DNA from: Acidimicrobiales bacterium
GTDB taxonomy: Bacteria; Actinomycetota; Acidimicrobiia; Acidimicrobiales; JAUJNH01
Reading direction: 5' to 3'
Length of the DNA stretch: 64,000 nucleotides
Assembly (NCBI GenBank): GCA_030448245.1
Contig: JAUJNH010000007.1
Coordinates: 124,001 to 188,000 of the forward strand
The position numbers and the translations under genes are program-made. Below, one piece after another: positions 27,210 through 39,112 of this stretch (the stretch's first letter is position 1; the number at the start of each line of letters is the position of its first letter). The notes below the pieces were generated by a model. That model worked only from the letters and a program-made list of their open reading frames with translations. It searched no databases and was not told the DNA's origin.

Positions 27210-28664
27210 TCACTGGAGGACGTCGACGAAGCGCTCCAGCTGCCGGAGGTTGCGGCACTCGAAGACACCGTCGCAGTGGTTGGCGTACTCGCCGACGATC
27301 GAGTCCCCCGTGTCCCAGTAGCTCTTCGGCTCCGGGTTCAGCCAGTACACGTGGCGGGCCTTGGCCCGGATCTCCTTCACGACCCACGAGCCGGCCGCGT
27401 GGTAGTTGTTCCGGGCGTCGCCGAGCAGGATGACCGTGGTCTTGGGGCCGATGTCGCTCCCCCACCGCTTCCAAAAGGTCTCAAAGGCGTGGCCGTAGTC
27501 GCTGTGGCCGTCGACCCAGATCACGTCGGCCTCGGTGTTCACCCGGTGGATGGCTGAGGCCACGTCGTCGACGCCGTCGAAGAAGCGGGTGACCTCGTCG
27601 ATCCCGTCGATGAAGACGAACGACCGGACCTTCGAGAACTGGCCGGCGATGGCGTGCACCAGCATCAGCGTGAAGCGGGCGAAGGCGGCGACCGACCCGG
27701 AGATGTCGGCGACCACGAAGATCTCCGGCTTGGTGGGGCGGGGGTAGCGGAACTTCGGCTCGGCCGGCACGCCGCCGTAGCTGAGCGAGTGGCGCACCGT
27801 GCTGCGGAAGTCGAGCGGGCCCTTCCGGCCGTGACGGCGCTTGCGGGCCAGGCGGACGGCGAGCTTGCGGGTGAGCGGGAAGAGCGCCTTGCGCAGCTGG
27901 GCCATCTCCTCCTTCGAGGCGTGCATGAAGTCGATGTCCTCGGGCAGCGGCTTGCGCAGCGTCTTGGCCATGGCCTGGGGGCCGCGGTCGGCCACGAGGC
28001 GGCGCCGGATCTCGGCCTCGATCTCCTTGCGCAACCGGTCCATGCGGCTCTCGAACTCGTCGAGGGCCAGCCGGCGCTCGAGGTCGGTGAGGCCGCCGTC
28101 GGCGTCGTCCTCGGCCTGCTCCAGGAGCCGCCGGAGCATCCCTTCGAGGTCGAGGTGGCGCAGCGTCCGGTAGAGGTAGTACGTGCCCCCCACCGGCCGG
28201 CCCGGCTCCATCCCGCTGAACCGGGTCACGGCCTGCTTGGCCAGCGCCTTGGTCACGGCGTCGTCGCCGTCGAGCATCGCCTTGTAGAGCATCTCGGCCA
28301 GCTCCTCGGCCGTGAGCCCCTCCAGGCTGCCGGCCCCCTCGGGCTGCCCGCCCTGCAGCTGCTGGAGCAGGCCGTCCAGATCGTCCTCCACCACCGGGCC
28401 CACGTCCCCCGGGTCGAGGCTGGCGTCACCGCCGAGCGCCGAGAAGTACACCTCGAAGACCGTCTCGAAGGGCCGCCAGTGCGAGTGGCTCTTCACCATC
28501 GTGGCCGCCAAGGCGTACTTGAGGGACTCGCGGTCGGCCAGGTCGACGACCCGCAGGGCCTCCATGGCATCGATGTGCTCGGTCAGCGACACGGGCAGGC
28601 CGGCGTTGCGCAGCTCGATGACGAACCCGTTGAGCACGTCGAGCAGGGAGCGGGTGGCGGCCAT
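27210..28664 (-). CDS. CoxE-like VWA domain-containing protein
   Basis: MAATRSLLDVLNGFVIELRNAGLPVSLTEHIDAMEAL...IFVVADISGSVAAFARFTLMLVHAIAGQFSKVRSFVFIDGIDEVT (MIDAS-like DxSxS). Confidence 0.88.
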   Translation of the reverse strand: MAATRSLLDVLNGFVIELRNAGLPVSLTEHIDAMEALRVVDLADRESLKYALAATMVKSHSHWRPFETVFEVYFSALGGDASLDPGDVGPVVEDDLDGLLQQLQGGQPEGAGSLEGLTAEELAEMLYKAMLDGDDAVTKALAKQAVTRFSGMEPGRPVGGTYYLYRTLRHLDLEGMLRRLLEQAEDDADGGLTDLERRLALDEFESRMDRLRKEIEAEIRRRLVADRGPQAMAKTLRKPLPEDIDFMHASKEEMAQLRKALFPLTRKLAVRLARKRRHGRKGPLDFRSTVRHSLSYGGVPAEPKFRYPRPTKPEIFVVADISGSVAAFARFTLMLVHAIAGQFSKVRSFVFIDGIDEVTRFFDGVDDVASAIHRVNTEADVIWVDGHSDYGHAFETFWKRWGSDIGPKTTVILLGDARNNYHAAGSWVVKEIRAKARHVYWLNPEPKSYWDTGDSIVGEYANHCDGVFECRNLRQLERFVDVLQ

Positions 28665-28666
28665 GG

Positions 28667-29560
28667 TCAGCGAGCCTTGAGCGGGTCGTTGACCGTCAGC
28701 TCCTTTGCCGCCCGCTGGATGTCGGACTGGTACTTGAGGAGGATGTTGAGGGTGCTCTTGGCCGTCTCGGCGTCGACGTCGTCGATGCCGAGGAGGAGGA
28801 GGGTGCGGGCCCAGTCGAGCGTCTCGGAGACCGACGGGTGCTTCTTCAGCTCGAGCTGGCGGATCGACCGGACGATGCGGACCACCTGGTCGGCCAGGTG
28901 CTCGGAGATGTCCGGCACCCGGGTGAGCACGATCTCCTTCTCGCGCTCCATCTGCGGGTAGTCGATGTGCAGGAACAGGCAGCGCCGCTTCAGCGCCTCT
29001 GACAGCTCACGCATGTTGTTCGAGGTGAGGAGCACGAGCGGGACCTGCTCGGCGGCCACCGTCCCCAGCTCGGGGATCGACACCTGGTAGTCGGACAGGA
29101 CCTCGAGGAGCAGCGCCTCGGTCTCGATCTCCAGGCGGTCGACCTCGTCGATCAGGAGCACCACCGGGTCGGTGGCCCGGATCGCCTCGAGCAGCGGCCG
29201 GCTCAGCAGGAAGCTCTCGGAGAAGATGTCCTCCTCGAGCTCGCTCCAGGTGGCCCCCTCGCCCTCGGCGTTGCGCTCGGCCTGGATCCGCAGCAGCTGC
29301 TTCTTGTAGTTCCACTCGTACAGCGCCTTTGACTCGTCGAGGCCCTCGTAGCACTGCAGCCGGATGAGGCGGGATCCGGTGACGGCGGCCACCGCCTTGG
29401 CCAGCTCGGTCTTGCCGGTCCCGGCCGGACCCTCGACCAGGATCGGCTTCTCCAGGCGGTCGGCCAGGTGGACGACGCCGCTGATGGCGTCGTCGGCCAG
29501 GTAGGAGACCGTCTTGAGGGCGTCCTTGACGTCGGCGGCTGACTCGAAGCGGGCGGCCAC
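28667..29560 (-). CDS. MoxR family AAA+ ATPase
   Basis: ILVEGPAGTGKTELAKAVAAVTGSRLIRLQCYEGLDESKALYEWNYKKQLL (Walker A), VVLLIDEVDRLEIETEALLLEVLSDYQVSIPELG (Walker B). Confidence 0.92.
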   Translation of the reverse strand: MAARFESAADVKDALKTVSYLADDAISGVVHLADRLEKPILVEGPAGTGKTELAKAVAAVTGSRLIRLQCYEGLDESKALYEWNYKKQLLRIQAERNAEGEGATWSELEEDIFSESFLLSRPLLEAIRATDPVVLLIDEVDRLEIETEALLLEVLSDYQVSIPELGTVAAEQVPLVLLTSNNMRELSEALKRRCLFLHIDYPQMEREKEIVLTRVPDISEHLADQVVRIVRSIRQLELKKHPSVSETLDWARTLLLLGIDDVDAETAKSTLNILLKYQSDIQRAAKELTVNDPLKAR

Positions 29561-30885: not shown

Positions 30886-31302
30886 TCAGCTGCGGCCCGT
30901 GACCTTCTTCTTGAGGGCGCCCAGCCCGCTCCTTCCGCCCTCCTTGGCCTTCGCCGCGTATCTCTTGGCCCGCTGCAGCAGGAGCCGGGCCCACACGAAC
31001 TCGGTGGCGAGGAGGGCCAGACCGGCGATGAGCACGAGGATGCCGGGCCCGGGCAGGACGAACATGGCGATGCCGGCGACCACGATCGTGACCCCCACCA
31101 CCAGGACGATCATGCGGTAGGCCTGGCGGACGATGACGTTCGGGCTGCGCCCCAGCTCGTACCAGCGCCGGGCCCGGTCCTCAGCCCGCTCCTCGAGCGG
31201 GTCGTCCAGCCGCTCCAGGCGCGGGTGCCGGTGTGCGCCGCCGCCCTCCACGGACGACAGTCTGCCCCGGCTGGTGCGGCTCTGCGCGGTCGACTCGGTC
31301 AC
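30886..31302 (-). CDS. PGPGW-like small transmembrane protein
   Basis: RQAYRMIVLVVGVTIVVAGIAMFVLPGPGILVLIAGLALLATEFVWARLLLQRAKRYAAKAKE; PGPG motif between TM segments; start overlaps terC stop. Confidence 0.8.
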   Translation of the reverse strand: MTESTAQSRTSRGRLSSVEGGGAHRHPRLERLDDPLEERAEDRARRWYELGRSPNVIVRQAYRMIVLVVGVTIVVAGIAMFVLPGPGILVLIAGLALLATEFVWARLLLQRAKRYAAKAKEGGRSGLGALKKKVTGRS

Positions 31303-32414
31303 CGGGGGGCTCGGTCCTCACCGTCGACCTCGGTCGGCTGCGCCAGGCCCTCCGAGGCCGCCGGTCCGCTCTCCCCGTCCCGGTCCCGGCGCCGCTCGGC
31401 CTCGCCCATCTCGTGGTCGACCGAGTCGTCGGTGTCGGCGTCGCGCTGGTCAGCCTTGAGCGACGCCACGATGGCCACCGTGAGCACGACGGCGATCACG
31501 ACCAGGGACAGCCAGGTCGGCGGGTGCAGCTCGAACGGCTTGCCGACGGCCAGCATCTTGAGGCCGACGTAGGCCAGGATCACGCCGAGCCCGAGGTTGA
31601 GGTACCGGAACTTCCCGGCCAGGCCGGACAGCAGGAAGAACAGCGAGCGCAGGCCGAGGATGGCAAAGGCGTTCGAGGAGAAGACGATGAACTGCTCGCG
31701 GCTGACGGCCAACACAGCCGGCACCGAGTCGACGGCGAACACCACGTCGGTGGTCTCGATCAGGATCAGGACGGCGAACAGGGGGGTGGCCACCCGCTTG
31801 CCGTCCTTCTTGGTGAACATCTTCTGGCCGTCGTACTCGTCGGTCGACGGGATCACCTTGCGCACGGCCCGGAGCGCGAGGTTCTGCGAGTAGTCGACCT
31901 CGTCGGTCTCGTCGTGGTGGGCGATCTTCCAGGCCGTGTACAGCAGGAAGACGCCGAACACGTACAGAACCCACTCGAAGCGCTCGATGAGGGCCACGCC
32001 CGCGAAGATGAAGACGGCACGAAGCACCAGGGCCCCGAAGATGCCCCAGAACAGCACCCGGAACTGGTACTGCTTCGGCACGCCGAAGAACGAGAAGATC
32101 ACGGCCCAGACGAAGACGTTGTCGATCGAGAGCGACTTCTCGATCAGGAAGCCTGAGATGTACTCGGTGGCCGCCAAACCGCCGTGCCAGCCGAACATCA
32201 GGCCCGTGAAGGCGACGCCGATCGAGATCCAGATGGCCGACTCGATCGCCGCCTCCTTGAAGCTGACGACGTGGGGCTTGCGGTGCACGATGAGCAGGTC
32301 GGCCACGACGAGCAGGGTGAGGAAGCCGAGGAGCGCGCCCCACTGCCAGGGGTGGACGTCGAAGGAGGCGAACCTCCCTCCGGCGTCGGCGGCGGCGGCG
32401 AGCATGGTGGGCAC
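31299..32414 (-). CDS. TerC family integral membrane protein
   Basis: KEAAIESAIWISIGVAFTGLMFGWHGGLAATEYISGFLIEKSLSIDNVFVWAVIFSFFGVP...PLFAVLILIETTDVVFAVDSVPAVLAVSREQFIVFSSNAFAILGLRSLFFLL; TerC signature regions. Confidence 0.95.
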   Translation of the reverse strand: MPTMLAAAADAGGRFASFDVHPWQWGALLGFLTLLVVADLLIVHRKPHVVSFKEAAIESAIWISIGVAFTGLMFGWHGGLAATEYISGFLIEKSLSIDNVFVWAVIFSFFGVPKQYQFRVLFWGIFGALVLRAVFIFAGVALIERFEWVLYVFGVFLLYTAWKIAHHDETDEVDYSQNLALRAVRKVIPSTDEYDGQKMFTKKDGKRVATPLFAVLILIETTDVVFAVDSVPAVLAVSREQFIVFSSNAFAILGLRSLFFLLSGLAGKFRYLNLGLGVILAYVGLKMLAVGKPFELHPPTWLSLVVIAVVLTVAIVASLKADQRDADTDDSVDHEMGEAERRRDRDGESGPAASEGLAQPTEVDGEDRAPR

Positions 32415-32559
32415 GATGGGTCTCCGGGGGGCTGGTGCGCGGGTGGGGTGGACCTACCCCTGGCGGCGTGTCCGTGACCATGCTGGCCGCCGCGGCTCGA
32501 CTACGTCAACCGTGGCTTGACAGGGTGGCAGGCGACCGGCCGCCATTAGCGTCTCGCCC

Positions 32560-34008
32560 GTGAGCTTCCTCGAGGGCGCCCTGCGCACCGTGCTCAGCGC
32601 CGGCCGCCCCGGGGCGCCCACGGGGCCGCTGGTCGAGCCGGTCGAGCGGTTCGTGGCCGAGGTGGCCGAGGTGCTCGTCGGCCTGGCCGGCACCGTCGCC
32701 GGCCGCCTGTCGGCCTCACCGGCCGAGCTCGAGCGGGATGTGGCGATCGAGGCGCTGAACATCGCCATGGCCATCGCCGACGCCGACGGGCGCCACAGCG
32801 ACACCGAGCTGGCCGCCCTGGGCCAGGCCTTTGGCGGCCGCTTCGGCTCGGCCGCCACCGTGGGCCTCGACGGCCGCAGCCGGTGGCTGGAGGAGCCGTC
32901 GACGCTGTTCGAGATCCTGGTCGGCCACGACGCCCGCGACGGCACCCGCACGGCGTGGCGCTACTACGAGCTGGCCATGCGCATCGCCCACACCACCGCC
33001 GGTCTCGACGCCGTCACGTCGGAGGCCGAGCTGGCGGCGATCGACCGGCTGCGCAGGACCCTCCTCGACACCATGCGCAGCGGCCCGCCCTCGCCCTCGG
33101 CCCGCCAGGCCTCGGGCGGCGGCCCCGCAGACCCGGCCGACGCGGCGGCGGGCACCCCACTGCCGGCGCCCGAGCAGCTGCCTCCGCCCCGGCCGCTGTC
33201 CGAGCTGCTGGCCGAGCTCGACGCCCTCATCGGCCTGGCCCCGGTGAAGGCCGAGATCCACCGGGTGGCCGACCTCCTCCGAGTCATGCAGCTGCGGCGG
33301 GAGCGGGGCCTGCCCACCACCGGTGGCAGCCGGCACCTGGTGTTCACCGGCAACCCTGGCACCGGGAAGACCACGGTGGCCCGGCTGGTGGCGCAGATCT
33401 ACCGCACCCTCGGCGTGGTCGAGGGGGGCCACCTGGTCGAGACCGACCGCAGCGGCCTGGTCGCCGGCTTCGTCGGGCAGACTGCGACGAAGGTGAAGGC
33501 CGTGGTCGACTCGGCTCTCGGCGGGGTGCTGCTCATCGACGAGGCCTACGCCCTGGTCCGGGGCACCGAGAGCGACTTCGGGCGCGAGGCCATCGACACG
33601 CTGGTGAAGATGGTCGAGGACCACCGCGACGACCTCGTCGTCATCCTCGCCGGCTACCCCGACGAGATGGCCCTGCTGGTGGCGGCCAACCCGGGGCTCA
33701 AGAGCCGCTTCCCGACCACCATCCACTTCCCGGACTACAGCACCGAGGAGCTGGTCGCCATCTTCGCGGTGATGTGCCGCTCCGCCTCCTACGAGCCGAC
33801 ACCCGCGGCCCTCGAGGTCGTGCGCCGACGCTTCGACGCCGACCCCCGCGGGCCCGGCTTCGGCAACGCCCGCGCCGCCCGGAACCTGTTCGAGGCGGCG
33901 CTGGCCCGCCACGCCAGCCGCATCGTCGACCTGACCGAGGCGGGGACGTCGGTCACCGACGAGCAGCTGAGCACCCTGGAGCCGGCCGACCTCGAGCCCA
34001 CGAGCTGA
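32560..34008 (+). CDS. TerB-like domain + CbbX/EccA-type AAA+ ATPase
   Basis: ALNIAMAIADADGRHSDTELAALGQAFGGRF (TerB-like helical region), then LIGLAPVKAEIHRVADLLRVMQLRRERGLPTTGGSRHLVFTGNPGTGKTTVARLVAQIYRTLGVV...GVLLIDEAYALVRGTESDFGREAIDTLVKMVEDHRDDLVVILAGY. Confidence 0.88.
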   Translation: MSFLEGALRTVLSAGRPGAPTGPLVEPVERFVAEVAEVLVGLAGTVAGRLSASPAELERDVAIEALNIAMAIADADGRHSDTELAALGQAFGGRFGSAATVGLDGRSRWLEEPSTLFEILVGHDARDGTRTAWRYYELAMRIAHTTAGLDAVTSEAELAAIDRLRRTLLDTMRSGPPSPSARQASGGGPADPADAAAGTPLPAPEQLPPPRPLSELLAELDALIGLAPVKAEIHRVADLLRVMQLRRERGLPTTGGSRHLVFTGNPGTGKTTVARLVAQIYRTLGVVEGGHLVETDRSGLVAGFVGQTATKVKAVVDSALGGVLLIDEAYALVRGTESDFGREAIDTLVKMVEDHRDDLVVILAGYPDEMALLVAANPGLKSRFPTTIHFPDYSTEELVAIFAVMCRSASYEPTPAALEVVRRRFDADPRGPGFGNARAARNLFEAALARHASRIVDLTEAGTSVTDEQLSTLEPADLEPTS

Positions 34009-34925
34009 TGTCACCGGGCCTGAAGAGCCTCGCCGCGCTGGTGGCCGCCGCGGCCATGGTGGGTGCCGCGGTCGTGGGGCGCGGTGCGCTCGAGACGAAG
34101 AAGGAGCGCGACGACCTCCGCCTCACGGTGGCGTGCGACCCCCTGGCCCAGGCGTTCTGCGAGGCGGCCGCGGCCGCCGATCCCCGCGTCACCGTCAAGG
34201 TCGAGGCGCCGGACGTCACCACCAAGCGGCTCGTCGGGCTGCAAGCCGGGGAGCGCCCTGACATCCAGGCGTGGGTCAGCGTCGGCCCTTGGCTCCAGAT
34301 GGCCGACGGCCGCCGCCCGGGCCAAGCCCGGTTGCAACGGGGCGATCCCCACTTCGTGTCCTCCACGCCGCTGGTGCTCGTCACCCGCGCCGGCCAGAGG
34401 CTCGACGCGTGCGGAAAGCCGCCGGCCGGCTGCCTGCCGCTGCCTCGCAGCTCGGTCGGCCTCCCGTCGCCCCGCAGCAGCGGCATCGGCCTGGCGGGTC
34501 TGGCCCAGGTGGTTCTGGCCGCCACCGGCACGGCGGCCGCCGAGCTCGACAGGTCGGTCATCGAGTCGGGCAGCGCGGTACCGGTGATCGACGCCCTCGA
34601 ACGGGCGACGAATCCGACCGCTGGCCTCGAGCAGCTCAACGCCAACTTCGCCCAGGCCAACCCGCTGGTCACCACCCAGGCGGCGGCGGCGGCGGTTGGC
34701 AGCCGCGCCGCCGTGATTCCGAGCGACCCGCCCGTCCGAGCCGTCCTCCAGGTGGGGCTGCTCGACGAGACCGCTCGCCTCGCCATGGGCGGCTCCGGGC
34801 CGGCAGGCAGGGCTTTGGCCAAGGCCGCCACCGATGCCGGCTGGGGCCCGCCGCTCGACCCCGCCGGCGGGCTCCCGGACCCCGGCGTCCTGGCCGCGCT
34901 CCAGGACGCCTGGCGGGGCCCATAG
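34008..34925 (+). CDS. Membrane-anchored extracellular solute-binding-like protein
   Basis: ATG overlaps upstream stop; N-terminal hydrophobic segment LAALVAAAAMVGAAVVG then LRLTVACDPLAQAFCEAAAAADPRVTVKVEAPDVTTKRLVGLQAGERPDIQAWVSVGPWLQMAD; SBP-like layout. Confidence 0.6.
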   Translation: MSPGLKSLAALVAAAAMVGAAVVGRGALETKKERDDLRLTVACDPLAQAFCEAAAAADPRVTVKVEAPDVTTKRLVGLQAGERPDIQAWVSVGPWLQMADGRRPGQARLQRGDPHFVSSTPLVLVTRAGQRLDACGKPPAGCLPLPRSSVGLPSPRSSGIGLAGLAQVVLAATGTAAAELDRSVIESGSAVPVIDALERATNPTAGLEQLNANFAQANPLVTTQAAAAAVGSRAAVIPSDPPVRAVLQVGLLDETARLAMGGSGPAGRALAKAATDAGWGPPLDPAGGLPDPGVLAALQDAWRGP

Positions 34926-34931
34926 CGATTG

Positions 34932-35597
34932 TCAGCCAGGCGCCGCCTCGGTCCCGAGGACGACCTGGAAGGCGCTCGCCCAGTCCTGGTAGCCAACGTC
35001 GTTGGGGTGGAACCAGTCGGCCGCGTACTTCCCCCGCCACGGTGGACCGGTTGCCGCCCACAGGTCGACGAGGCGCAGGTCTCGGGCCGAAGCCAGCTCT
35101 GCCAACAGCTCGTTGACCTGGTGGGCTTCCCGCTCCCGCAGGCCCCTGGGCAGGTTGGCCAGCAGCGAGCCGGCCGGCAGCGCAGCCGAGACCTGCTTCA
35201 TTGCCTCGGCCAGGCCTGCGGGCCGGCGCAGCAGGTCGTTGGCCCCGACCGCGCAGGAGACCAGGTCAGGTGTGAGGGTGGCGAGCGCTGGAACCTGGTC
35301 AACCAGCACGTCGGCGGCCAACGCCCCGCTCTTGGAGAGGTTGACCACCCGCCACTTCACCAGGTCGCGCTCCTCGAGCCAGGCCCGGACGAGCCCGACG
35401 TAGCCGCGGCTGGCCGCGCTGGCTCCGACGCCCTGGGCCGTCGAGTCACCGAACACGACCCAGAGCCGCTCCGTCCCCTGTCCGGGATGGTCGTTGGCCC
35501 GGCGCCACTCCTCGGCGTAGGCCAGGATCTGGTGGCGCCGCTCGCGGGTGCCGGGCAGGAGGCCGAGCAGCCGCCGCCGTACCGCCCCTCGCTCCAC
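34932..35597 (-). CDS. SGNH/GDSL hydrolase family protein
   Basis: RLWVVFGDSTAQGVGASAASRGYVGLVRAWL (GDS block), LVSCAVGANDLLRRP (GxND block), DWFHPNDVGYQDWA (DxxH block). Confidence 0.88.
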   Translation of the reverse strand: MERGAVRRRLLGLLPGTRERRHQILAYAEEWRRANDHPGQGTERLWVVFGDSTAQGVGASAASRGYVGLVRAWLEERDLVKWRVVNLSKSGALAADVLVDQVPALATLTPDLVSCAVGANDLLRRPAGLAEAMKQVSAALPAGSLLANLPRGLREREAHQVNELLAELASARDLRLVDLWAATGPPWRGKYAADWFHPNDVGYQDWASAFQVVLGTEAAPG

Positions 35598-35689
35598 GCC
35601 ACCTGCAACCCCGTCGTCAGCTCCCGCCTTCCACGCCAGCCGGTCGGGGCCTGAGCCCGTTCGCCGCAGGGTGGCCCTAACCTGCTCTC

Positions 35690-37489
35690 GTGCGCGCTCG
35701 GCTGGCCCTGCTCGCGGTGGCGGTGGCCCTGGTGGCGTCCGGCTGCAGCCCGAAGGGCGGTGGGCAGGACGAGGGCGACGCTCCCGAGGGGTGCACGACG
35801 ATCCAGGTGACCGTCAGCCCGGAGAAGGTCGACCTCATGACCGAGCTGGCCGCCGACTTCAACAAGACCCGGGAATCGAAGCAGGCGGCCGAGGGATCGT
35901 GCGCGTTCGCCAAGGTCCGCCGCCTCTCCTCCGGGGCGGGCGCCGAGGCCCTGCCGGCCGGATGGGCCGACGAGGCCGCCCACGGCCCCAAGCCGACGAT
36001 CTGGTCGCCGGCCGGCGCCGCCTGGGGCGCCGTGGCCAACCAGCGGCTGGCCGACAAGGGCCAGCCGGCCATGGCCCCACGCGACGCCCAGTCGCTCATG
36101 CTCACGCCCCTCGTCATCGGGATGCCGAAGCCGATGGCCGACGCGCTCGGCTACCCCGCCAAGCCGATCGGGTTCGACGACCTGGTCGCGCTGTCGCAGG
36201 ACCCGGCCGGCTGGGGCGGCAAGGGCCACCCTGAGTGGGGGCCGTTCAAGCTCGGCAAGACCAACCCGAACTTCTCGACCAGCGGGCTGAACGCCACCAC
36301 CGCCCAGTACTACACGGCGGTGAAGAAGACGTCGGGGTTGACCGCCGAGGACGTCGCCCGCCCCGAGGTCGCCGAGTTCAACCGCAAGATCGAAGCGGCG
36401 GTCGTCCACTACGGCGACACCACGCTCACGTTCCTGAACAACCTCTACCGGGCGGACCAGCGGGGCACCGCGCTCACCTACGTGTCGGCGGTGGCCGTCG
36501 AGGAGAAGTCGATCATCGACTACAACCGCGGCAACCCGGACGGCGTGCTCGAGCAGGGCGAGAAGCCCCGCCCGCCCCGAGTGCCTCTGGTGGCCGTGTA
36601 CCCGAAGGACGGCACCCTCTTCTCCGACAACCCGCTTTACGTCCTCGACGCCCCCTGGGTCACCCCCAAGCACCGGGCCGGCGGGCAGGCCTTCGCCCGC
36701 TTCGTCCAGGAGACCGACAACCAGAAGAAGGCGCTGGCCACCGGCTTCCGCCCGGCCAACCCGGCGGTGGCCGTGGCCGACCCGATCGCCGTCGCCAACG
36801 GCGTCGACCCGGGCCAGCCCGCCACCACCCTCGGCGTACCCGACCCGCCCGTGCTCGCCTCGATCATCACCAAGTGGGGCGAGCAGCGCAAGGGTGCGCA
36901 GGTGCTGCTGGTCATCGACGTGTCGGGCTCGATGGGCGAGGAGGCAGGCGACGGCCAGACCAAGCTCGACCTGGCCAAGCAGGCAGCCGTCAACGCCCTG
37001 TCGCAGTTCGGGCCGAACGACCTGGTCGGCCTGCGCATCTTCTCCACCGGCATCGGGCGCGGCGAGTCGACCGACTACCTCGACCTCGTCCCCATCGGCC
37101 CGATCGCCACCAACCGGGAGCAGATCGCCACCCGCATCCGAGGCCTGGTGCCGACGGAGGGAACCCCGCTCTACACCACGGCCACGGCCAGCTTCGAGCT
37201 CATCACCAGGCAGTACAAGCCCGCGCTGATCAACGCGGTGGTGCTCCTCACCGACGGCAGGAACGAGGACCAGCGCAACAACGACCTCCAGGGCACGCTG
37301 GCCAAGCTGAGCGCCGGGAGCGAGGGCGGCGGGACCCGCCCGGTGCGGCTGTTCACGATCGGGTTCGGCAAGGACGCCGACCAGGGCGCCCTCCGCCGGC
37401 TGGCCGAGGCCACCTCCGCCCGCGCCTACGACTCGTCCGACCCCAGGGCCATCGACCAGGTCTTCACCAACGTGATCTCCAACTTCTGA
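35690..37489 (+). CDS. Substrate-binding and VWA domain-containing lipoprotein
   Basis: Signal/lipobox LLAVAVALVASGC; SBP-like region (TTIQVTVSPEKVDLMTELAADFNKTRESKQ...KPTIWSPAGAAWGAVANQRLADKG); VWA with MIDAS QVLLVIDVSGSMGEEAGDGQTKLDLAKQAAVNAL. Confidence 0.88.
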   Translation: MRARLALLAVAVALVASGCSPKGGGQDEGDAPEGCTTIQVTVSPEKVDLMTELAADFNKTRESKQAAEGSCAFAKVRRLSSGAGAEALPAGWADEAAHGPKPTIWSPAGAAWGAVANQRLADKGQPAMAPRDAQSLMLTPLVIGMPKPMADALGYPAKPIGFDDLVALSQDPAGWGGKGHPEWGPFKLGKTNPNFSTSGLNATTAQYYTAVKKTSGLTAEDVARPEVAEFNRKIEAAVVHYGDTTLTFLNNLYRADQRGTALTYVSAVAVEEKSIIDYNRGNPDGVLEQGEKPRPPRVPLVAVYPKDGTLFSDNPLYVLDAPWVTPKHRAGGQAFARFVQETDNQKKALATGFRPANPAVAVADPIAVANGVDPGQPATTLGVPDPPVLASIITKWGEQRKGAQVLLVIDVSGSMGEEAGDGQTKLDLAKQAAVNALSQFGPNDLVGLRIFSTGIGRGESTDYLDLVPIGPIATNREQIATRIRGLVPTEGTPLYTTATASFELITRQYKPALINAVVLLTDGRNEDQRNNDLQGTLAKLSAGSEGGGTRPVRLFTIGFGKDADQGALRRLAEATSARAYDSSDPRAIDQVFTNVISNF

Positions 37490-37499
37490 GGTGGTCTGA

Positions 37500-38297
37500 G
37501 TGGCCGTCGAGCGCCTGCCCGAGGACGTCCGCACCCCGGCCGTGGCGCGGGCCATGTTCAGCCCGTCGGCCATCCTGCTCGGCGGCGGTGCGGCGTCGGT
37601 GGCCATCCTGGCCGGGCTGTGGCCGCTCGCCCCGGTCGCCGCCCTGGTCGGCTGGGGGGCGAAGGTGGCGCTGGCCATCCCCCGCAAGCGCCGGCCCACC
37701 ATCAACCCGGGCCGGCTGCCCAACCCGTGGAAGACCTTCGTGATCGAGGCGGCGCAGGCGGCCAAGCGGTTCAACGACCTGGTGCGCACGCTGCCGCACG
37801 GCCCGATGCGCGACGAGCTGGCCGAGGTGGGAGCGAGGGTGGACGAGGCCGTGCGGGAGTGCTGGGAGATCGCCAACCGCGGCGCCCGACTCGACCTGGC
37901 CCGCCGGCAGCTCGGCCTCACCCAGGCGGCCACGGAGCTCGAGCGCCTCAAGGGCGAGCGCCACCTGCGGGCCCAGCAGGGCATGGACCTGGTGTCGATC
38001 GACCGGGCCATCACCGCCGTGCAGCGCCAGCTGGCCGCCGGGCAGCGGGTCGAGGCGGCCGCCTTCGAGGCCCGCGACCGGCTGCGCGTGCTCAACGCCC
38101 AGCTCGACGAGGCGGTGGCCGCCGTCGTCGAGCTCAGCCTGCGACCCAGCGCCGGCGGCTCGGCCGGCGCCGTCCGTGGCCAGGTGAACGGCATCATCGA
38201 CGAGCTCGAAGCGCTGCGGCTGGCGCTCGACGAGACTGACACCCTCACCGCCCCCTCACCCGACGGGGCGGCCTCCTCTACCTTGGAGCAGCGATGA
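37500..38297 (+). CDS. Two-TM coiled-coil protein encoded upstream of pspA
   Basis: FSPSAILLGGGAASVAILAGLWPLAPVAALVGWGAKVALAI then long helical/coiled-coil region (LAEVGARVDEAVRECWEIANRGARLDLARRQLGLTQAATELERLKGERHL); overlaps the pspA start. Confidence 0.65.
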   Translation: MAVERLPEDVRTPAVARAMFSPSAILLGGGAASVAILAGLWPLAPVAALVGWGAKVALAIPRKRRPTINPGRLPNPWKTFVIEAAQAAKRFNDLVRTLPHGPMRDELAEVGARVDEAVRECWEIANRGARLDLARRQLGLTQAATELERLKGERHLRAQQGMDLVSIDRAITAVQRQLAAGQRVEAAAFEARDRLRVLNAQLDEAVAAVVELSLRPSAGGSAGAVRGQVNGIIDELEALRLALDETDTLTAPSPDGAASSTLEQR

Positions 38298-39112
38298 TCA
38301 AGCTCTTCCGCAAGATGGGCAAGTACATGACCGCCCTGTTCACCGGCAAGTTCAACGAGGCGGCCGACCCCAAGATCCAGCTCGAGCAGGCGATCATGGA
38401 GGCCCAGGACCAGCACCGGCGGCTCACCGAGCAGGCGGCCAACGTGATCGCCAACCAGAAGCAGACCGAGATGCGGCTGAACCGCTCCATGGAGGAGCTG
38501 GAGACGACCTCCGGCCGGGCCCGCCAGGCCCTCCTGATGGCCGACGACGCCAGCAAGAAGGGCGACGCCACCCGGGCGTCCGAGCTGGAGAAGACGGCCG
38601 AGATCCTGGCCAACAAGCTCATCCAGGTCGAGCGCGAGGTCGAGTCGCTCAAGCAGATGCACCTGCAGACCAGCGAGAACGCCAACAACGCCAAGCGGGC
38701 CGTGCAGTCCAACTCGGCCGCCCTGCAGAAGAAGCTGAGCGAGCGCCAGAAGCTCCTGTCGCAGCTCGACCAGGCGAAGATGCAGGAGCAGATGAACGTG
38801 GCGATGACCAGCCTGAGCGCGTCGGTGGGCCAGGACGTGCCGACCCTCGACGAGGTCCGCCAGAAGATCGAGTCCCGCTACGCCAAGGCGCTGGGCTCGG
38901 CCGAGCTGCAGGAGGACTCGGTCGAGACCCGGATGCTCGAGGTCGAGCAGGCCAGCGCCGACATGGAGGCCCAGGCCCGCCTGGCCGAGCTGCGCACCCA
39001 GCTGGGGCTGTCCGGTGGGACGGCGGCCACGGGCGAGGTCGGCACCGGCTCGGTCTCCGAGCAGGTGCCCCAGCCGGCCCCCTCGGCCGCCGAGGTCCCC
39101 CGCCAGCCCTAG
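38294..39112 (+). CDS. pspA: PspA/IM30 family protein
   Basis: MIKLFRKMGKYMTALFTGKFNEAADPKIQLEQAIMEAQDQHRRLTEQAANVIANQKQTEMRLNRSMEELE...; PspA-type coiled coil. Confidence 0.92.
   Translation: MIKLFRKMGKYMTALFTGKFNEAADPKIQLEQAIMEAQDQHRRLTEQAANVIANQKQTEMRLNRSMEELETTSGRARQALLMADDASKKGDATRASELEKTAEILANKLIQVEREVESLKQMHLQTSENANNAKRAVQSNSAALQKKLSERQKLLSQLDQAKMQEQMNVAMTSLSASVGQDVPTLDEVRQKIESRYAKALGSAELQEDSVETRMLEVEQASADMEAQARLAELRTQLGLSGGTAATGEVGTGSVSEQVPQPAPSAAEVPRQP

Follow-up and report, generated by a model that had tools for sequence, protein, structure and literature searches.

Five genes form a conserved unit of fixed order in Actinomycetota, and this apparently unnamed set probably guards the cell envelope. 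They encode an AAA+ protein of the CbbX/SpoVK class (AAA+), an anchored protein with a solute-binding-like domain (SBP1), a lipoprotein in which a solute-binding-type domain is fused to a VWA domain (SBP-VWA), a coiled-coil membrane protein (CC), and PspA, in that order. The same order is found on one strand in 24 loci that span at least 15 families and two class-level groups of the phylum. One of these loci lies in the window, the whole stretch of 64,000 nucleotides analyzed here (Acidimicrobiales bacterium, GCA_030448245.1, contig JAUJNH010000007.1, positions 124,001 to 188,000); in two others, a contig end cuts PspA (L018) or the AAA+ protein (L026). Because the order recurs in 24 loci, the gene arrangement is not a product of chance. 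The original prediction, which proposed an envelope gene set ending in PspA, staked itself on co-occurrence of the genes beyond this lineage, and that expectation was borne out. Compared with the initial proposal, the functional unit comprises fewer genes and is found more widely.

All of the genes named at the outset are present in the window at the stated coordinates. The plus strand carries the genes for AAA+ (32560-34008; PF00004, AAA, and PF17866, AAA_lid_6), SBP1 (34008-34925), SBP-VWA (35690-37489; PF13531, SBP_bac_11, E=1.5e-11; PF00092, VWA, E=1e-10), CC (37500-38297), and PspA, a member of the IM30/ESCRT-III superfamily (38294-39112; PF04012, E=5.8e-30). The stop/start overlaps that had been claimed are also found, as TGATG at 34006-34010 between AAA+ and SBP1 and as ATGA at 38294-38297 between CC and PspA. 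The expectation of a single operon does not hold here, because a gene for a GDSL/SGNH hydrolase, overlooked initially, lies on the minus strand between SBP1 and SBP-VWA (34932-35597; PF13472, E=2.8e-21). The window genome consequently has two plus-strand units, AAA+/SBP1 and SBP-VWA/CC/PspA. The insertion is restricted to the window locus, with no homologue in the other mapped loci, and the hydrolase gene is outside the conserved unit. Separate from the PspA cluster, the window also contains a MoxR-class AAA+/CoxE-type VWA pair (27210-29560) upstream of proA, which is kept beside proA in many Acidimicrobiia loci.

A single-sequence contig scan had retrieved only three relatives, and profile searches of whole genomes were therefore used. 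CC was searched in 40 relatives, and neighborhoods of at most 20 kb were mapped with the proteins of the window or with profiles derived from these. Most Acidimicrobiales-type loci are located between proB and proA, and synteny within the Acidimicrobiia is less informative since the proA/MoxR/CoxE flank is conserved there too. The informative setting is provided by three families of the same phylum outside the class (f74, f81, and f88), in which the same block occurs without adjacent proA, proB, or MoxR genes; in this group the block is retained amid differing surroundings (L075, L077-L081, L083, and L084). Where coordinates are listed, the CC match is separated from the pspA match by 27-166 bases, or by ∼1.7-2.3 kb with a murJ gene between. 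Several loci carry further genes. In family f81, the opposite strand between AAA+ and SBP1 encodes a protein kinase that has a PQQ-type beta-propeller (L078 5358-7667; also L079). In L023 (13291-13971), the same two genes are separated by a gene for a Crp-family regulator in the orientation opposite to both. In L021 (12565-14023), NfeD and band-7/SPFH genes occupy the stretch from proB to pspA, which fits reported PspA/band-7 associations.

The association extends to an even sample of 396 genomes of the phylum. With an AAA+ orthologue defined as a full-length match that scores more than 600 bits and is clearly set apart from lower-scoring matches, and CC as a match of at least 120 bits, AAA+ and CC are each present in 23 genomes and occur together in 21 (Fisher p=1.6e-30, without correction for phylogeny). 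A strong SBP-VWA match (>700 bits) occurs in 17 genomes, 16 of which harbor CC and 16 AAA+. Few candidates were scored per genome, and absences are accordingly less certain than presences.

Reduced and divergent loci reveal that CC is the common element and hub of the cluster. The SBP/VWA genes are missing from three loci that retain AAA+-CC-MurJ-PspA (L033, L036, and L157), and smaller sets consist of CC-MurJ-PspA (L155 and L156), CC-PspA (L040), and MurJ-PspA (L146). AAA+ is not obligatory, since it is absent from the lineages of a divergent locus with SBP1-SBP-VWA-CC (L085) and of two loci with SBP-VWA-CC-PspA (L086 and L092, the CC-like gene of the latter being highly diverged). A CC-like gene still adjoins distant SBP-VWA genes, and comparison of CC with the CC-like set there gives 98.6%. 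On Streptomyces and Miltoncostaea plasmids, SBP-VWA is likewise followed by a CC-like gene; in contrast to the cluster, neither PspA nor an AAA+ of the CbbX/SpoVK class is annotated close to these plasmid genes. The genome of the window harbors a second SBP1-like/CC-like pair on contig 4 (L034 8558-10365), without VWA or PspA, and L042 contains a similar pair. In L041 (4512-5645), a CC-type domain is fused to an RDD membrane domain.

CC is a helical protein with two N-terminal transmembrane (TM) segments and a long, mostly coiled-coil remainder, as assigned from hydrophobic segments and an AlphaFold model (pLDDT 87) with helices at residues 22-37 and 41-59 and long helices extending to residue 250. 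No known Pfam family is among those listed for CC, and a fold search returned no PDB match at E<0.001; what it did return were helical bundles of a generic kind and weak matches to BAR-like folds. An identity as XpaC/TelA was considered and dropped, as no XpaC (PF10112) is among the families listed for CC (best 25 of 44). The same identity was ruled out for the extra gene found between CC and PspA, which encodes the lipid II flippase MurJ (PF03023, E=4.9e-79 and 4.1e-89). In most loci, CC adjoins pspA or is one murJ away from it; the PspA of the window is the only one found in its genome.

The position of murJ raises the alternative that the cluster is a constitutive morphogenesis or peptidoglycan-export module, in which PspA and CC organize the growth-site membrane for MurJ and are regulated by AAA+ and the SBP/VWA proteins. 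The roles of PspA known so far are mostly related to stress, which counts against a constitutive function. The murJ gene is part of the operon in many Acidimicrobiia and lies between CC and PspA in nine full loci, and six genomes (G006, G147, G166, G186, G280, and G383) have no strong MurJ other than the one encoded in the locus. The MurJ-PspA pair, moreover, persists in L146 without CC, AAA+, or SBP genes. Also in favor of this alternative, RsmP, a corynebacterial PspA homologue, is described as a regulator of rod shape in the survey of Ravi et al. 2024 (PMC11237479). On the other hand, the operons of the other class-level group do not contain murJ, and the single MurJ found in the window genome is encoded on contig 17, outside the cluster. 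A constitutive growth module appears rather unlikely. The embedding of murJ in the operon of many relatives points to a function of the cluster where peptidoglycan precursors are exported.

The AAA+ protein falls in the class of CbbX, SpoVK, and EccA, to which its best NCBIfam matches belong (TIGR02881/02880/03922), and its top fold match is CbbX (E=1.7e-20). Consistent with this class, it combines AAA with AAA_lid_6 and has intact Walker motifs; across 14 orthologues, there is little or no variation in Walker A (GNPGTGKTT), in Walker B (IDEA), or at Arg383. It scores below all three equivalog cut-offs, at 243/459, 277/423, and 233/467 bits (score/cut-off) for CbbX, SpoVK, and EccA, respectively, the 277 being TIGR02881. 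The all-helical N-terminal domain differs from that of CbbX (the activase of red-type Rubisco), SpoVK, and EccA, and unlike the settings of those proteins, no Rubisco or ESX genes are seen beside the cluster AAA+. No TM or signal segment was found, and the protein is predicted to be cytosolic. A role in anti-phage defense was rejected, as PADLOC gave only weak generic AAA+ matches.

The N-terminal helical domain contains acidic DADG...EL-type motifs that resemble TerB, and in the window the TerC/Alx-family gene (31299-32414, minus strand; TIGR03718, 388 bits) is divergent from the AAA+ gene, with a gene for a small PGPGW membrane protein beyond it (30886-31302, minus strand; PF09656, E=1.3e-18). 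These features had suggested a Ter-type metal or tellurite stress system with a TerB-AAA+ protein and TerC at its core. TerC and PGPGW are indeed divergent genes as described, but they are private to the window neighborhood and absent from every other conserved locus. The TerB domain itself was not recovered: the window protein has no match at E≤1, none is among the families listed for the 14 orthologues, PF05099 has no match in the whole genome, and hhalign of AAA+ against TerB gives a probability of 13%. The locus genes scanned with Pfam likewise matched neither TerD nor TelA. The Ter framing fails on both counts, and a system of this type is highly improbable.

SBP1 has a single N-terminal TM anchor ahead of its extracytoplasmic domain and four cysteines that are invariant in the orthologue alignment. 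The window protein has no Pfam match of its own, and its assignment relies on profile comparison with SBP-VWA (hhalign probability 97.6%, E=3e-12, 333 columns); SBP_bac_11 is matched in 4 of 12 SBP1 orthologues. These alignments identify SBP1 and the solute-binding half of SBP-VWA as paralogues, which upholds the earlier claim of two SBP-like proteins. Across 16 SBP-VWA orthologues, the lipobox Cys19 and the residues of an intact MIDAS (D410, S412, S414, T492, and D522) are invariant. NCBI's 'substrate-binding and VWA domain-containing protein' has the same architecture and belongs to the same family, with no function annotated. The matches to SBP_bac_11 and SBP_bac_8 could indicate part of a solute transporter whose neighborhood is incidental. 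The block, however, contains no conserved extra gene fit to be an ABC permease or ATPase, and its order is kept across two class-level groups, making a transporter extremely improbable.

Both SBP1 and SBP-VWA are predicted to be exported, which would place them on the opposite side of the membrane from AAA+ and PspA. This topology bears on the model of the original prediction, in which AAA+ and VWA form a remodeling complex of the MoxR or CbbX-CbbO type with SBP domains as sensors. AAA+/VWA pairs are common elsewhere, and the two genes are close together in the 24 loci. A direct AAA+/VWA machine is nonetheless topologically unlikely, because the lipoprotein that bears the VWA domain is exported, as its invariant lipobox cysteine indicates, whereas AAA+, with neither an export signal nor a TM segment, is predicted to be cytosolic. 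The genes are also lost independently: some loci that lack the VWA gene still have AAA+ together with CC, MurJ, and PspA, and others have SBP-VWA but no AAA+. The cluster differs from MoxR/CoxE or RavA/ViaA pairs in the lipoprotein nature of the VWA partner and in having an AAA+ of the CbbX class rather than the MoxR class. The proposed machine is therefore very unlikely.

Among the closest known systems is the ClgR-PspA-PspM-PspN system of mycobacteria, also Actinomycetota, in which PspA is likewise encoded beside a membrane protein of ∼270 aa that combines two TM helices at its N terminus with a helical cytosolic portion. CC is not recognizable as PspM by sequence: hhalign of CC against 13 PspM sequences from ClgR-PspA-PspM loci gives 50.7% over the C-terminal 59 columns only (PspA control, ∼0.9% or less), which is only suggestive of homology. 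PspM is reported to be restricted to mycobacteria and corynebacteria (PMC11237479). The block lacks PspN and adds AAA+, SBP1, SBP-VWA, and often MurJ. No HTH domain that could represent ClgR is present among the scanned locus genes, and PspB, PspC, and PspF of the E. coli-type Psp system are absent from Pfam scans of the locus.

A link between PspA and AAA+ proteins is also found in the PspA/Snf7 operons of Ravi et al. 2024 (PMC11237479), some of the longer of which include a solute-binding protein. The AAA+ partners described in that survey are of the double-AAA, Vps4-like, or beta-propeller-fused type, and some are accompanied by genes for an ABC transporter and for a PBPB-OmpA protein; compared with the operons described there, the present cluster has a CbbX/SpoVK-class AAA+ and an SBP-VWA fusion and no ABC transporter. 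The main text of two genome-wide PspA surveys in the open-licence literature (PMC11237479 and PMC9239133) makes no mention of comparable VWA or SBP partners, and no study of a Psp response in Acidimicrobiia and relatives was found in that literature. The cluster can be described as a Psp-type envelope system with added AAA+, SBP1, and SBP-VWA, and is apparently unnamed.

The reading we favor, which is plausible but tentative, is a Psp-type envelope-maintenance module of Actinomycetota in which CC anchors PspA, AAA+ remodels PspA or CC, and the SBP/VWA proteins report an envelope signal. CC would sit in the membrane through its TM hairpin with the helical region in the cytoplasm, and may anchor PspA polymers at the membrane by analogy with PspM in mycobacteria. 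The CbbX-class AAA+ would then extract subunits from PspA and/or CC assemblies, leading to remodeling or recycling, in analogy to Vps4 acting on ESCRT-III. SBP1 and SBP-VWA may serve as an optional extracytoplasmic input, binding an envelope-derived ligand or partner in a metal-dependent manner via the MIDAS and reporting to CC. The very short loop of the CC hairpin makes it harder to see by what route the exported proteins could signal to CC. Where murJ is present, the module could be coupled to lipid II export.

A more specific proposal, possible though doubtful, is a bacterial counterpart of ESCRT-III/Vps4, in which the dedicated CbbX-class AAA+ remodels CC-anchored PspA polymers at lipid II export sites, with exported SBP/VWA proteins as the controlling sensors. 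PspA is a member of the ESCRT-III superfamily, and AAA+ is genetically tied to it. Unlike ESCRT-III/Vps4, no MIT domain is among the 25 families listed for AAA+, the C-terminal tails of PspA have no conserved MIM-like motif for AAA+ binding, and the AAA+ is of another class.

The existence of a dedicated PspA motor equivalent to Vps4 is an open question, and whether PspF has a Vps4-like role for PspA has been left open (PMC8281802). An AAA+ gene tied to pspA via a membrane anchor offers a testable candidate for such a motor. The frequent presence of murJ in the operon suggests a possible link between membrane remodeling and the export of cell-wall precursors, in a cluster that occurs in many little-studied actinobacteria.
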